The notes: generated by a model from the letters alone, not told the origin. 64,000 bases of DNA from Armatimonadota bacterium (GCA_018268375.1 JAFDWS010000001.1:377375-441374); one strand, 5' to 3'; positions 37,917-43,092 are shown, counted from the first letter of the stretch. Program-made: numbers and translations.

Positions 37917-38675
37917 TTAGCCGAGGTCAGGGCTCGGTTTCTCGCTCAGCGTCTGGACGAACGACTCATTCGCCGGGAGCCGGTGCTCCAAGGCGCTGCG
38001 CCAGAACGCGAAAAGAGTCCGAGCGCACTCGTCCGCCCGTTTGAGATGGGCGGGAGGCTGATCCAGGTCGACGATCTTCCGCAAAGCGATGAGCGCCTCC
38101 GCAGACACGCGAAACCGGTCTTCGTACCGCAGCGACTCGGACTCTCGCACGTGCCCGCCCGCGAAGGGCGAGACCCAAGCGGGGTTCTCCGAGAGTTGTC
38201 CGCCCGAGACCGCGCTCACTGTCCAATCGGGATGAACCCCCTCGAGGTCAAGCAGCCTGGCCTGCGCCCAAACAAAGGTCGGCACGAGTGGAGCGCCATG
38301 GTCGAGAGCGCCGAGGGCTTGGCCGAGCAGGTCGTAGACCTCCGGCGCTGGGCTCTCGTAGGGAACCCCGACAGCTACGAGCTCCGCAAGTGCGAGCGCC
38401 GCAAGGGTGAGGTCGTAGTCGAGGCGGATGCGGGGGAACGACGTCGCTGGCTGAACCTGCGTAACGAAGCGTCTCAGCTTCCCTTCCGCCCACGTGAATG
38501 TTGCGCGCACGAGCGGCTCGCTGGATCCGGCAAGCCTGGAGCCCGACTTGCGGGCACCCTTGGCGACCACGTCGAGCTTTCCAAGAGTAGGAGTGAACAG
38601 CGTCAGGCGGCGGTCGGCTTCGCCAGAATCGCTCCGGCGAAGCACGATCGCTTCCGACGAGACCTCAGCGGCCAC
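37917..38675 (-). CDS. recO: DNA repair protein RecO, without the usual zinc Cys
   Basis: This 252-residue protein has the RecO N-terminal OB-fold signature SSEAIVLRRSDSGEADRRLTLFTPTLGKLDVVAKGARKSGSRL (here residues about 6-48) and the helical C-terminal domain. RecO loads RecA with RecR in gap repair. The region that normally holds four zinc-binding Cys reads HPDWTVSAVSGGQLSENPAW without any Cys, a loss also seen in other lineages. The start is a GTG at 38675 that overlaps the end of the membrane protein gene by 11 bases. Confidence 0.88.
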   Translation of the reverse strand: MAAEVSSEAIVLRRSDSGEADRRLTLFTPTLGKLDVVAKGARKSGSRLAGSSEPLVRATFTWAEGKLRRFVTQVQPATSFPRIRLDYDLTLAALALAELVAVGVPYESPAPEVYDLLGQALGALDHGAPLVPTFVWAQARLLDLEGVHPDWTVSAVSGGQLSENPAWVSPFAGGHVRESESLRYEDRFRVSAEALIALRKIVDLDQPPAHLKRADECARTLFAFWRSALEHRLPANESFVQTLSEKPSPDLG

Positions 38676-39438
38676 TGAGATGCTGCAGGCTGGTCACCCA
38701 TTCGATCCAGATGTAGAACATCCGGTCGATGACCAGCGCGAAGCGCGCCATGACGGTGCTGCCGAAGATGGCGCCGAAGCCGATCATCAGCATCCACCGA
38801 CCCATCCGGTTGAACCCGGCCAAGAATTTCGTCTTGAGCTCAAAGCTGTAGATGAAGTAAGTGAACGCGGCTAGCAGCGTGACCACGAAGATCAAGTTGT
38901 TCAGTGCTTGGCTCGGATAGATGTTCGAGTTGATCAGTGCGATCTGCTCGGGCGTATATCCGGCACCCGTGGTGACGGGCTTGACGAACGAGCTCCAAGT
39001 CGTCGGGAACACCGGCTGCATCGAAGCATAGAGCTGTGGTCCATACGTCTGCCACCAGATCTGGACTTGCTGGCCCGCCCAGAGCCCAAGGATGATCCCG
39101 ATGGGCACTCGGCTCAGCCAGTTGTGCTTCTTGCTGAAGACAAAGTAGCCGAGCAAGCCGATCGGCAGGAGAACGATATAAACCCAATAACCGGGAGTGG
39201 CCGGCAAATGGGTCTTGTCGTCCAGTTGGCCGACCATTTTGAGCCACCACTGCGGATACAGCGTCTCCTTCCACAGCGCGACCATGGCGTAGCCGGCGGC
39301 CAAGCCAAGGAAGATGTGCTCGAAGAACCGGAAGAACTTCGTCTCCTTGTAGAGCACGCTGTACAAGCCGATTGTGGCGAGCACGCCGCAGGACAACTTG
39401 ATGAAGTTGAACAGGTCGATGGACTGTTGGTTGACCAT
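38665..39438 (-). CDS. Multi-pass membrane protein of the DUF6754-associated operon
   Basis: This 257-residue protein has about six hydrophobic helices: LSCGVLATIGLYSVLY, IFLGLAAGYAMVALW, YWVYIVLLPIGLLGYFVF, VPIGIILGLWAGQQV, NLIFVVTLLAAFTYFIYSF, and MLMIGFGAIFGSTVMARFALVI. An extracytoplasmic loop (YGPQLYASMQPVFPTTW) lies between helices 4 and 5. I recognise no transporter motif. Its ATG follows the TAA of the preceding gene with no gap. It is the last of six uncharacterised membrane-associated genes (43092 down to 38665). Confidence 0.85.
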   Translation of the reverse strand: MVNQQSIDLFNFIKLSCGVLATIGLYSVLYKETKFFRFFEHIFLGLAAGYAMVALWKETLYPQWWLKMVGQLDDKTHLPATPGYWVYIVLLPIGLLGYFVFSKKHNWLSRVPIGIILGLWAGQQVQIWWQTYGPQLYASMQPVFPTTWSSFVKPVTTGAGYTPEQIALINSNIYPSQALNNLIFVVTLLAAFTYFIYSFELKTKFLAGFNRMGRWMLMIGFGAIFGSTVMARFALVIDRMFYIWIEWVTSLQHLSGR

Positions 39439-40416
39439 TTACGAAGCCCTCTCTGCCTTGCGGCCCAGGAACATGCCCACGTTGCCAAGGATGACCGCGA
39501 TGATCAGCAACAAGATGGCAAAGTGGAACGACAGGTAGTAGAGCGAGCCGCGCGCAAAGGTCTTGCCCTCAGTGACAGGTTCGGCTGATTTGTCCTCCTT
39601 TCCGGCCCAGGGCACCTCGATCCTTCCGTTCTTGTTTGGATCGGGGTGGTTCAGGCCGTACTTCATCATGTACTCCATGTCGTACACGCCTTTCAGCCCG
39701 ATCGCCACGCCTTTGATCTGGCCAGCTTGGTACCAGGGGAGCGCGCTCGGCCCAATGACGCCGGTGCACATGACGGCAAGATTGGTCCGCTCGTTCAGCC
39801 TCTCCACAGCACGGTCGACCGTGCTCGAAGCCGTCACGATCATGTAGAGCCCTGCATCGCCCACGGTTTGAACTTTGCTCAGGACGGGCGATTCGAAGGC
39901 AGGGCGGTCGGAACCCGTGTTGGGATCCTTGACCCGCCGGGAAGCAAAGGCTTTGCGCACGTCGAACGCGATGGCGTTCAAAGTGCCTTCCGCGTTCGGG
40001 AAGTAGGCAAGGTCGACGTAGTCGTCCCAAGTCTTGTACTCGGTGAGCCCTGCCTCTTTGCGTTCCAGGTTGATGTTACGAATGACCTCGCGATAAACGC
40101 CTGGCGCCTGAGCGTCGCCCACGGAGTAGACGACGAACTTGATCTTTCGGGACATCAGGATGCGCAAGAGCGCTTCCATGTGGCCGGCATTCTCGCCTCG
40201 GGTCGAGACGGTCCAGTCGGACTGGAGGAAGACTGTCTTGTCCTGAGGAATGGTCATGAGGCGGTAGTACAGCGCCTTGGTGTAGGCGTCGGGCTCCACG
40301 GGCAGGTCGGTCTTGATGAAGAGCGGGACCGTTGTGAAGACCACCAGGATCGCGTAAAGGATCCGGCGGTCCAGGTTCTGCATCCTTTCGAGGAAGGTCG
40401 GCTTGGTGTCGCTCAT
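39439..40416 (-). CDS. Membrane-anchored protein with large extracytoplasmic domain
   Basis: This 325-residue protein has one helix near the N-terminus (ILYAILVVFTTVPLFI) and one near the C-terminus (FHFAILLLIIAVILGNVGMFLG). They flank about 240 residues that look alpha/beta and Rossmann-like (MSRKIKFVVYSVGDAQAPGVY, EGTLNAIAFDVRKAF, LAVMCTGVIGPSALPWYQAGQIKGVAIGL in pieces). No catalytic motif is known to me. It is coupled by ATGA to the gene at 40413-41369. It may be the sensor or substrate-contact part of the operon's complex. Confidence 0.85.
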   Translation of the reverse strand: MSDTKPTFLERMQNLDRRILYAILVVFTTVPLFIKTDLPVEPDAYTKALYYRLMTIPQDKTVFLQSDWTVSTRGENAGHMEALLRILMSRKIKFVVYSVGDAQAPGVYREVIRNINLERKEAGLTEYKTWDDYVDLAYFPNAEGTLNAIAFDVRKAFASRRVKDPNTGSDRPAFESPVLSKVQTVGDAGLYMIVTASSTVDRAVERLNERTNLAVMCTGVIGPSALPWYQAGQIKGVAIGLKGVYDMEYMMKYGLNHPDPNKNGRIEVPWAGKEDKSAEPVTEGKTFARGSLYYLSFHFAILLLIIAVILGNVGMFLGRKAERAS

Positions 40417-41369
40417 ACCGTGACACCTCCCTTCTCAAGGCCCAGCCAGAGCCGAAGCCCCATGGCGAGGGCGCCGAGGCCGATGCCGAAGTCGACAGCG
40501 CGAAGGGCTGGCACCTGCAACGTGTTCCGCAACCAACCGGCCGCGCTTGTTATCTTCAGATTGTTGAGGTAGCCCGCCTCGTTGATCTCTGGGTTGGCGA
40601 GGGGGATATGCATGCCAGCAGCCATGTTCGCGACGCCGTGGTTCCAAGCGAAGACGATGCCGCCGAGCAAGCTGATCATCAAGATGAGCGCGCTGGCCAT
40701 GAGCACGGTCGCCTCGACAGACCTGATCCGGAACGCCCGATACGCCGCGGAAAGGATGAAGAAGGCGATCATCGAGAACATCGCCGAGTCCATTTGCTGG
40801 AGAAATCCATCGAAGAGCAAGTTCTGGGCGAAGTTGATGGGCGTCCAATTGACCATCTCTTGGAGCTTGCCTTCCTTGCCCGCGACAGAGAACTCGCGCA
40901 TGTACCAATCCATGTAGCCGACCAGAGTGATCGCCAGCATGGAAACGATGAGCACAATGCTGAACGGGCTGTCGGCTTGTCTCTTGACGATCTTCGAGAG
41001 GTGGATACGGAGCAGCGAGTAGATGCCTAGTCCGAGCAGGATCGTCGTCAAGATGTTGCTGACGTCGGCCACCCTGGGCTGAATATCGTTCAGAAGGAAG
41101 CCAATGCCTTCAATGCCATCGCGCGGAAGCGTGTTCGGCTCTCGGCTCACTGGTTGTGGCCAGATCCAAAGGGCGACATAGAACGCACCTGCAATGAAGG
41201 TGAAGAACCAGACGACCGGTCGCCGCACACGAGTGGGCGCGTTCATGAGGAACGCCACGATGCCGCAACAGAGCAACAGGGTCACGCCGATCTTCAGCCA
41301 CAGCTCCCCAGAGAGCGGCGGAACCCGCCAGAAATTGTAAGTGGGCACCTGGGCCAACAGATTAATCAC
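40413..41369 (-). CDS. Multi-pass membrane protein of the DUF6754-associated operon
   Basis: This 318-residue protein has about seven hydrophobic segments: LWLKIGVTLLLCCGIVAFL, VVWFFTFIAGAFYVALWIW, ILTTILLGLGIYSLL, IVLIVSMLAITLVGY, AMFSMIAFFILSAAY, TVLMASALILMISLLGGIVFAWN, and a weaker C-terminal one (AVDFGIGLGALAMGL). Charged loops contain SKIVKRQADSPF and YMREFSVAGKEGKLQ. I recognise no family with confidence. Both ends overlap neighbours by ATGA, so its synthesis is tied to theirs. Confidence 0.85.
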   Translation of the reverse strand: MINLLAQVPTYNFWRVPPLSGELWLKIGVTLLLCCGIVAFLMNAPTRVRRPVVWFFTFIAGAFYVALWIWPQPVSREPNTLPRDGIEGIGFLLNDIQPRVADVSNILTTILLGLGIYSLLRIHLSKIVKRQADSPFSIVLIVSMLAITLVGYMDWYMREFSVAGKEGKLQEMVNWTPINFAQNLLFDGFLQQMDSAMFSMIAFFILSAAYRAFRIRSVEATVLMASALILMISLLGGIVFAWNHGVANMAAGMHIPLANPEINEAGYLNNLKITSAAGWLRNTLQVPALRAVDFGIGLGALAMGLRLWLGLEKGGVTV

Positions 41370-42367
41370 TGCTCACCTCCTCCTGCTTCCTTCGGAGCGT
41401 CAGGGTCAGGTTGCCTTGTGACCGTCAAGTCTTCCTTGGTGAAGAGCGGGTTGAACGCGCGGTAGAGGCCAGTGTCCTCGGGAGAGGCTAGTTCGGTTTT
41501 GCCGTCGTCGTTCTTCTTCCACGTCTCCGCCGTCGAGAACGTCTTCTTTTGGTCTTCGGTCAACTTATTCCAATCTTCTTCACTCGCGTCCTTGAGTGTC
41601 ATGCGGTGGGTGTCGGTCATTTGGCCCCGCTGGTAGCTGTTCACCCAAAAGCCGAGGAAGACGGTCGCGGCCATGAGGATTTTCGCCCAGTCTTGACCGA
41701 CCAGACTTCCGACCAAGATCGGCTGCCGGGTGAGGTAGGCGCTCGCTGCGTAAAACTCGTCGCCGATCAAGACGTAGTCACAAGCTGCGATGAAGAAGGG
41801 GGTCTGCGACTTTTCAGTCGAGCCGGCGACTTGGATGGCACCAACGCCGTTCGCGGTCTCGGCGAAAATCAGGGACTCGGCAAAGAACTCTCCTAGAAAG
41901 AACGCGGCGGCGACCTTCTCGCGGAGGATGAGGCCACTGACGCCAGCGGCAAAGGCGAACTGGCGGTCGGTCACGAACCGTACTGAGTCCGTGTCGTAAC
42001 GCTCTTCTAAGCCTTGTTGCTGATAGACGTCGCGGATGACCTCTTGGGCAACGGTGTAGACGGCGGCGTTCGCCACGCACAGTCGTATCGGGGTCGAGAA
42101 CTGCGCCGCAGTCTTCGTGACGTGGGCGAAGATGTTGACCGCTTGGACCGAGATCGCGTTCAGGTCGCCGACGCCGGGAACCATGAGGACGGGTCGGCCC
42201 ATTTCGGTTGCGCGGCCGATCGCGTCGTCGATCGCGTTCAGGCCGGGAATGCGCCGAATGAAGAGATCCTTGCGTTTCTTTTCCGAGCGGTAGATGTTGA
42301 ACAGGATGAAGAACACGAGCAGTAACGTGTAAACCATCCCGACCCATGCTGTGTCATGCCATTGCAT
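41366..42367 (-). CDS. DUF6754-like membrane protein
   Basis: This 333-residue protein has an N-terminal helix (MVYTLLLVFFILFNIY) and a soluble domain at residues about 30-235. It includes GRPVLMVPGVGDLNAISVQAVNI, VANAAVYTVAQEVIRDVYQ, FVTDRQFAFAAGVSGLILREK, GEFFAESLIFAETANGVGAIQVAG and QTPFFIAACDYVLIGDEFYAASAYLTR (quoted in parts of the chain). A second helix sits near residue 245, and a polar, acidic tail follows. The pattern matches my recollection of DUF6754, described in several phyla without known function. The tail (DPDAPKEAGGGEQ) is probably disordered. Confidence 0.85.
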   Translation of the reverse strand: MQWHDTAWVGMVYTLLLVFFILFNIYRSEKKRKDLFIRRIPGLNAIDDAIGRATEMGRPVLMVPGVGDLNAISVQAVNIFAHVTKTAAQFSTPIRLCVANAAVYTVAQEVIRDVYQQQGLEERYDTDSVRFVTDRQFAFAAGVSGLILREKVAAAFFLGEFFAESLIFAETANGVGAIQVAGSTEKSQTPFFIAACDYVLIGDEFYAASAYLTRQPILVGSLVGQDWAKILMAATVFLGFWVNSYQRGQMTDTHRMTLKDASEEDWNKLTEDQKKTFSTAETWKKNDDGKTELASPEDTGLYRAFNPLFTKEDLTVTRQPDPDAPKEAGGGEQ

Positions 42368-42719
42368 CGAGGTTGTCAGACCCTCCTTTGGGTTCTTCTC
42401 GTAGGAACTCCAGCCGCTTGATCAAGTCCTCCACGGACTGTCTGTCCCCCGCGAGCTGGCTATAGTCGTCGACGTTGCCGATGCCCACGAACGGGATCAG
42501 GAACGGAGAGAAGACGACAAGGGACTGGGAGGCGAGGCCGGCGAGCGGCTTATGCATCTCGAGGAAGAGGATCGCTGGGGTCTCCATCCGGCGCTTGTGG
42601 ACGGCTTGCGCCACCTTCTCCACAAGCTCCGCTTTCTTCTCTTGGTTCAGAGGTTCGTTCCAGAGACCTTGCATCGCTTTCCCAGAGTGCGCGTATTTTG
42701 CCCAATACTTGGGCTTCAT
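42354..42719 (-). CDS. Small protein of the DUF6754-associated operon
   Basis: This 121-residue protein starts at the ATG at 42719; ATG 42674 (GGGA nearby) or ATG 42587 are alternatives. A conserved-looking core, RRMETPAILFLEMHKPLAGLASQSLVVFSPFLIPFVG, spans residues about 44-80. It combines an amphipathic part with a hydrophobic stretch that may sit in the membrane, and VEDLIKRLEFLREEP follows. The 'TPAI.FLE..KPL' block is what persuades me it is real. Its 5' part overlaps the PH-like gene by up to 170 bases in another frame, and its 3' end overlaps DUF6754 by 14 bases. Confidence 0.7.
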   Translation of the reverse strand: MKPKYWAKYAHSGKAMQGLWNEPLNQEKKAELVEKVAQAVHKRRMETPAILFLEMHKPLAGLASQSLVVFSPFLIPFVGIGNVDDYSQLAGDRQSVEDLIKRLEFLREEPKGGSDNLDAMA

Positions 42720-43092
42720 TGCCCGTGTATCGCAGAAACAGACCGCGGAAGGCGTCCATTCGGTTCGGTTCATCGAACGGACTGAGCCTAACGCCACCGG
42801 CTTGTGGGATCAGACGCTTGACCTCCTCCCAACGGATCGAAGACTTTGAGAAACCGATCTTCTGCGACGCCTCGTTTTCGTCGAGCCGGTATTTGACGGG
42901 CAAGAAGAGCTCGGCAGTCGAGAGGAAGACCACCGCGATCCCAATGAGGGCGAAGAGGACGTGGTGAAGGATTGTCAGCCCGCCCAGGCCTGCCAGGAGC
43001 ATGAAGGCGACGGCCACGAATCTTCGACTGGGATCCTTCTCCCAGGCGCGATACTGCCACTCCATCGGCGGCTTTGACTGGGGAACCTGCAC
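42550..43092 (-). CDS. Two-helix membrane protein with PH-like domain
   Basis: This 180-residue frame starts at GTG 43092, or ATG 43065 (MEWQYRAWEKD). Two adjacent helices (FVAVAFMLLAGLGGLTILHH and VLFALIGIAVVFLSTAELFLP) are followed by a domain like bacterial PH/YcxB proteins: YRLDENEASQKIG, IRWEEVKRLIPQAGGVRLSPF, RGLFLRY, QVLGKIRALW. The last 40 residues or so are acidic and Ser/Pro-rich and coincide with the next gene in another frame. They may be a disordered tail. It starts 4 bases after the acyl-CoA dehydrogenase stop. Confidence 0.7.
   Translation of the reverse strand: MQVPQSKPPMEWQYRAWEKDPSRRFVAVAFMLLAGLGGLTILHHVLFALIGIAVVFLSTAELFLPVKYRLDENEASQKIGFSKSSIRWEEVKRLIPQAGGVRLSPFDEPNRMDAFRGLFLRYTGNEAQVLGKIRALWESDARSLERTSEPREESGACGEGGASRPQAPDGDPSDPLPRDA

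Follow-up and report, generated by a model that had tools for sequence, protein, structure and literature searches.

A 64,000-nucleotide stretch of an Armatimonadota genome (GCA_018268375.1, JAFDWS010000001.1:377375-441374; hereafter the window) carries an operon of six minus-strand genes, termed A to F, whose third member, C, encodes a DUF6754 protein. A preliminary description made from the window alone had proposed that the six products form one membrane complex. We compared the operon across genomes and found that its genes, together with two further genes termed M and K that lie elsewhere in the same genome, appear to belong to one system, a reading that is well supported by the sequence comparisons below. 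The six genes of the window are as follows.

A, 42550..43092, minus strand: small, with a membrane segment at the N-terminus and a soluble domain at the C-terminus; the least conserved member
B, 42354..42674, minus strand: ~106 residues, with the motif METPAILFLE and a single hydrophobic stretch
C, 41366..42367, minus strand: DUF6754 protein with a predicted N-out helix, cytoplasmic Rossmann-like domain (residues ~40-215), second helix and variable tail
D, 40413..41369, minus strand: polytopic membrane protein of 6-7 helices; the motifs AAYRAFRxRSxEA and FGxGLGxLAMxLR are conserved
E, 39439..40416, minus strand: two membrane helices around a ~250-residue Rossmann-like alpha/beta domain, predicted to be extracytoplasmic
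F, 38665..39438, minus strand: polytopic membrane protein of up to 6 helices with the motif MIGFGAIFGxTVMAR

All six open reading frames were present as first described, including the small protein with a TPAIxFLE motif (B), and relatives of all six occurred in the same order in most of the named Armatimonadota loci, so the arrangement is not due to chance. The reported overlaps of 4-14 bases or absent gaps were recovered: B and C overlap by 14 bases, C and D by 4, D and E by 4, and E and F adjoin with no gap. The longer overlap of A and B, given earlier as up to 170 bases, measured 125 bases with the B start that we chose by homology (longer starts exist) and 167 bases with the next ATG. The last ~35 residues of A, which overlap B, were not conserved among relatives. 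The surroundings were mixed, as had been noted, with an acyl-CoA dehydrogenase gene ending 4 bases upstream of A and recO overlapping F by 11 bases.

C, previously called DUF6754-like, was a clear member of that family over the whole domain (PF20539, residues 7-248, E = 6.8e-92, 307.7 bits against a gathering cut-off of 27), and A, B, D, E, and F had no significant match in Pfam or NCBIfam. For A there was no Pfam match at E ≤ 1 and no PDB profile match, the PH fold included, which leaves its earlier label of PH-like plausible but unproven. PDB-sequence profile searches with C, E, K, D, F, and A gave chance-level matches only, and profile comparisons detected no relationship between C and E (probability 1.8%) or between D and F (0.6%). 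A Pfam search of the six proteins, RecO, and the acyl-CoA dehydrogenase found no ABC ATPase, and ABC genes were occasional neighbours of the cluster in other genomes. None of A-F, M, and K matched the anti-phage defence models of PADLOC at E ≤ 0.01, no relatives of C were found on plasmids, and no mention of DUF6754 was found in the open-access papers searched.

The exact helix counts first described are provisional: a crude hydropathy plot gave one merged segment for A, one strong segment for C, six for D, two for E, and four strong segments for F. The structure model of C (predicted local distance difference test, pLDDT, of 84, and at least 90 over most of the core) placed a Rossmann-like domain (residues 40-215) between a membrane helix and a second, long helix, and its alignment had 39 invariant columns among 55 sequences. 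In other phyla, helix 1 of C is preceded either by a signal sequence plus an fn3-like domain or by a lipoprotein-type signal. This places the N-terminus outside and the Rossmann-like domain probably in the cytoplasm, which fits the basic residues after helix 1. The model of E (pLDDT 96, predicted template modelling score 0.91) showed a Rossmann-like domain between two membrane helices, close to the two helices and 240-residue alpha/beta domain described before. Its short basic ends point to a cytoplasmic location of the termini and an outside location of the domain. Conserved residues near the strand ends of the modelled domain (SDWTxSTRGE, LGYFP, SGQxxGxxxGLKG) are arranged in a way that suggests a binding pocket. 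D and F have conserved charged residues within or beside their helices.

Foldseek searches with the C and E models returned nothing at E ≤ 0.001. With a second structure aligner, the nearest folds to C were Sir2 (Z 11.1, 3.5 Å over 143 residues), MT0777 (Z 10.5, 3.2 Å over 133), and the RCK domain of MthK and the carbon monoxide dehydrogenase epsilon subunit (both Z about 10), while those to E included the same epsilon subunit (Z 8.4, 3.1 Å over 143) and transhydrogenase domain III. As judged from the models, these matches reflect a generic Rossmann-like arrangement and assign no family or function. Structural matches to known transporters did not arise in the profile searches with C, E, D, and F or in the fold searches with C and E.

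Conservation of the operon across genomes

The DUF6754 family was found in 173 of 201 sampled Armatimonadota genomes, and each of the 42 examined Fermentibacteria genomes had the DUF6754 core. The family was absent from all 14 well-known control genomes. The named relatives of C came from Armatimonadota and, at 47-50% identity, from Fermentibacteria and Poribacteria. A wide spread with similar neighbours had been stated for DUF6754 in the preliminary description; this held for Fermentibacteria and Poribacteria, but the two Deinococcota control genomes had no DUF6754.

Profiles built from the window proteins identified 112 loci with a relative of C, 111 with one of D, 109 with one of E, 77 with one of F, 71 with one of B, and 70 with one of A, and the relatives of A and B lay at the corresponding place; many apparent absences of F, B, and A come from loci that end early. 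The order A-B-C-D-E-F recurred across Armatimonadota, and the order C-D-E-F was also found in Fermentibacteria and Poribacteria. Another 85 loci were compared, almost all from outside the window's family and with one locus per genus. Here D and E each accompanied C in 81 loci and F in 78, with C-D-E-F side by side in about 78, and the flanking genes differed almost every time. The acyl-CoA dehydrogenase neighbour was local (3 loci), and recO adjoined the cluster only among closer relatives (44 loci). The genes thus co-occur well beyond close relatives, as expected from the preliminary description, and C and E had identical presence patterns in the 141 good genomes defined below. These data contradict the view, which we regard as highly improbable, that six membrane-protein genes just happen to be transcribed along with housekeeping genes and do no joint work: the operon is contiguous with the acyl-CoA dehydrogenase gene and recO in the window, but neighbours vary by genus while C-D-E-F persist, and the parts are lost together.

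At two loci (L128 and L131), two or three inserted genes split C-D from E-F, and both genomes carry a second copy of the cluster. Fermentibacteria also have an extra solitary DUF6754 gene with no D, E, or F, often beside a GNAT-like acetyltransferase gene, and several of these genes lie near a second C-D-E-F set.

Solitary Fermentibacteria DUF6754 genes: L219:16265-17443, L222:8671-9819, L224:11687-12847, L226:9870-11024, L227:13692-14945

The second Fermentibacteria set is adjoined by serA-like and transketolase genes, and gcvT/H/PA/PB adjoin the cluster in Fermentibacteria and a few Armatimonadota (L104, L223, L125, L177, L258). A link to one-carbon metabolism, considered because gcv, serA, and folate genes lie near several clusters, was rejected, as gcvH occurred in only 3 of the 85 Armatimonadota loci (about one per genus).

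Two further genes, M and K

In many loci outside the window's class, two additional genes lie between B and C. Inside the operon, M encodes a ~600-residue MutL-family protein (PF13941, E = 1.6e-125), and K encodes a ~375-residue protein whose only signals, KOW and biotin/lipoyl-like, are weak. The order A-B-M-K-C-D-E-F was found at three loci (L119, L122, L208), and at L223 A-B-M-K is followed a short distance on by C-D-E-F. Two other loci read A-C-D-E-F-M-K (L170) and C-D-E-F-M (L177), and M adjoins K apart from the other parts at three more (L171, L173, L180). Operon-borne M and K occurred in other Armatimonadota classes and in Fermentibacteria. Moreover, paralogous M and K are fused into a single protein of 910-959 residues in Fermentibacteria (seven cases in five genomes), and in one of these (L227) the fusion begins 80 bases past the end of a second C-D-E-F set. 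Together, the gene fusion and the shared operons argue strongly that M and K function jointly with each other and with C-D-E-F. The six genes do travel together, as first described, but the unit is larger, and that description had recognised neither the MutL-type ATPase M nor the KOW/barrel-sandwich protein K. Each has one intact copy in the window's genome, far from the window:

M, G000:C4:2908-4386
K, G000:C5:1258849-1259964

M lies near rplJ and rplL in this genome (L163:1-4464), and likewise in two relatives (L164, L211).

M scored 430 bits (E = 1e-128) against PF13941, the MutL domain of Pfam. Because the three ASKHA nucleotide motifs were kept in 57 of 57 long MutL proteins, M should bind and hydrolyse ATP. 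It has an extra C-terminal region of ~110 residues that is not found in two short GlmL-like sequences of the sample, and Cys 519 is invariant, fusions included, and missing from the short GlmL-like forms. M fell below both NCBIfam cut-offs for GlmL (TIGR01319, 191 bits against 204; NF040745, 231 against 475), and no match to GlmE (PF06368) was found in the window's assembly, which is 92.6% complete. Given the scores, the extra C-terminal region, and a genome without GlmE, M is a member of the MutL superfamily but not the glutamate-mutase helper GlmL.

K probably has a barrel-sandwich domain of the RnfC/NqrA type, whose score passed the Pfam cut-off in the L227 fusion (E = 8e-6) and fell short of it in the K of the window's genome (E = 0.005), and the C-terminus of K contains a KOW-like segment.

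Joint presence and loss

We compared the presence of the parts in the 201-genome phylum sample and in its 141 good genomes (completeness of 90% or more, contamination of 5% or less), with the absence sets compiled by hand from the result tables. Seventeen of the 201 genomes lacked C, M, and K together (Fisher test, p = 2e-13 for C and M, p = 2e-15 for C and K). Among the good genomes, C and E were absent from an identical 13. K was absent from 10, all within these 13, and no genome with C lacked K. M was absent from 11, of which 10 also lacked C, E, and K. The control for incomplete assembly, recO, was absent from none of the 13 genomes without C. In addition, M was present in all nine DUF6754 genomes reached through the named loci, and the system as a whole occurred in ~90% of good Armatimonadota genomes.

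The ten genomes without C, E, M, and K were spread over four families (f1, f6, f9, f11), which makes several separate losses likely. As some of these families have the three loci in unlinked places, a single deletion or assembly gap would not account for the joint loss. Two genome-reduced members of the window's family (G181 and G185, 1.5 Mb) had lost C, E, M, and K but kept recO, and the system is therefore dispensable in some lifestyles.

Some observations weigh against a single system. The joint-loss values in the 141 genomes (C and MutL, p = 5e-12; C and K, 5e-13; C and E, 1e-18; recO control, 1) ignore shared ancestry. M and K were kept without C in 3 of the 141 good genomes, and C without M in 1. 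K was found in only two of four Poribacteria genomes, and the window's own family has M and K unlinked to the operon.

A possible ATP-dependent envelope machine

We propose that the operon encodes the membrane half, and M and K the cytoplasmic half, of an ATP-dependent membrane machine, a reading to which we give a probability of about 0.5. C, D, E, and F would form a membrane complex with D and F as its membrane-spanning core. E would show a ligand-binding-like alpha/beta domain outside, and C, on the cytoplasmic side, one of broadly the same fold class; A and B would be accessory subunits. M, as an ASKHA-type ATPase of the MutL/GlmL superfamily bound to the barrel-sandwich/KOW protein K, would dock with it on the cytoplasmic domain of C. 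Binding or hydrolysis of ATP by M would then switch the state of the membrane complex and hence of the outer domain of E, and the outcome may be an ATP-driven cycle of transport, remodelling, or reactivation across the envelope. The single membrane complex proposed earlier is supported by gene coupling and co-occurrence; the physical complex, the docking on C, and the energy coupling and its direction are what we infer from them. As the system is near-universal, mostly single-copy, and not linked to any pathway, its role would more likely be envelope housekeeping than specialised metabolism.

Three other explanations, ranked in the order given here, accept that the parts work together. The first, which we consider unlikely though the least so of the three, is that M is a chaperone or reactivase that keeps a membrane enzyme formed by C-D-E-F active, with no transport or force involved. 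GlmL, in whose superfamily M falls by its PF13941 match, has been described to reactivate glutamate mutase (PMC4682846), and the very high conservation of C, with invariant acidic and arginine residues in its Rossmann-like domain, is what would be expected of a catalytic subunit. However, M stays below all GlmL model cut-offs in a genome without GlmE and has an additional C-terminal domain and a partner, K, that GlmL lacks, and no known cofactor site was found in C-F.

Less probable still is an envelope sensor, in which E would bind an outside ligand, C would relay the signal, and M-K with a response regulator would control transcription. In the window's genome (contig C5, L193:6971-7666, plus strand), an OmpR-type response regulator gene overlaps the end of K, and in several relatives K likewise overlaps or directly adjoins one. 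Of the Fimbriimonadaceae K loci inspected, most have such a gene after K, as does one other family, and in another class four genomes carry a different OmpR-type regulator after F. The two regulator groups are only ~40% identical, though, and may be independent recruits. No histidine kinase was found in the set, and its seven or eight structural components far exceed the needs of a sensor.

An Rnf/Nqr-type redox or ion-pumping complex, with K as its RnfC-like input subunit, seems more doubtful again. Its likeness to the present system would lie in the probable barrel-sandwich hybrid domain of K, and both have two polytopic subunits along with one that bears an outer domain. But cysteine columns above 60% were found in none of K, D, E, and F, and C had two, one of them invariant, which leaves no obvious iron-sulfur sites. 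Moreover, D, E, and F have no sequence relation to Rnf/Nqr subunits, a Pfam search giving no match for D and F, and an ATPase is present instead.

Compared with known systems, the proposed machine resembles GlmL/MutL in the ASKHA ATPase core of M with its phosphate and adenosine motifs, and differs in that M has the C-terminal region with the invariant cysteine and is tied to membrane proteins and K, with no glutamate mutase. In the PilM-PilN-PilO system, a cytoplasmic ASKHA protein lies under membrane proteins with outer alpha/beta domains, a general plan that the present system may share; PilM is of another ASKHA family, and the polytopic D and F as well as K are without counterpart there. 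The Pfam entry for DUF6754 gives one domain of unknown function, and its partners, topology, and link to a MutL-type ATPase appear to be undescribed. The system as a whole also appears undescribed; no other of its composition was found, and a fold search of D, F, and K might still link it to a known system. We know of no ATPase of the GlmL/MutL family that energises a membrane complex. It is tentatively conceivable that this is a new kind of machine, in which a GlmL-type ASKHA ATPase acting via the adaptor K powers movement or remodelling across the envelope through Rossmann-like domains on both sides.

In this system of about eight parts, only C and M match a Pfam family outright. With M and K as its cytosolic half, a list of membrane proteins of unknown function becomes a testable and probably ATP-dependent machine, and the system offers an explanation for GlmL-like genes without glutamate mutase in these bacteria.

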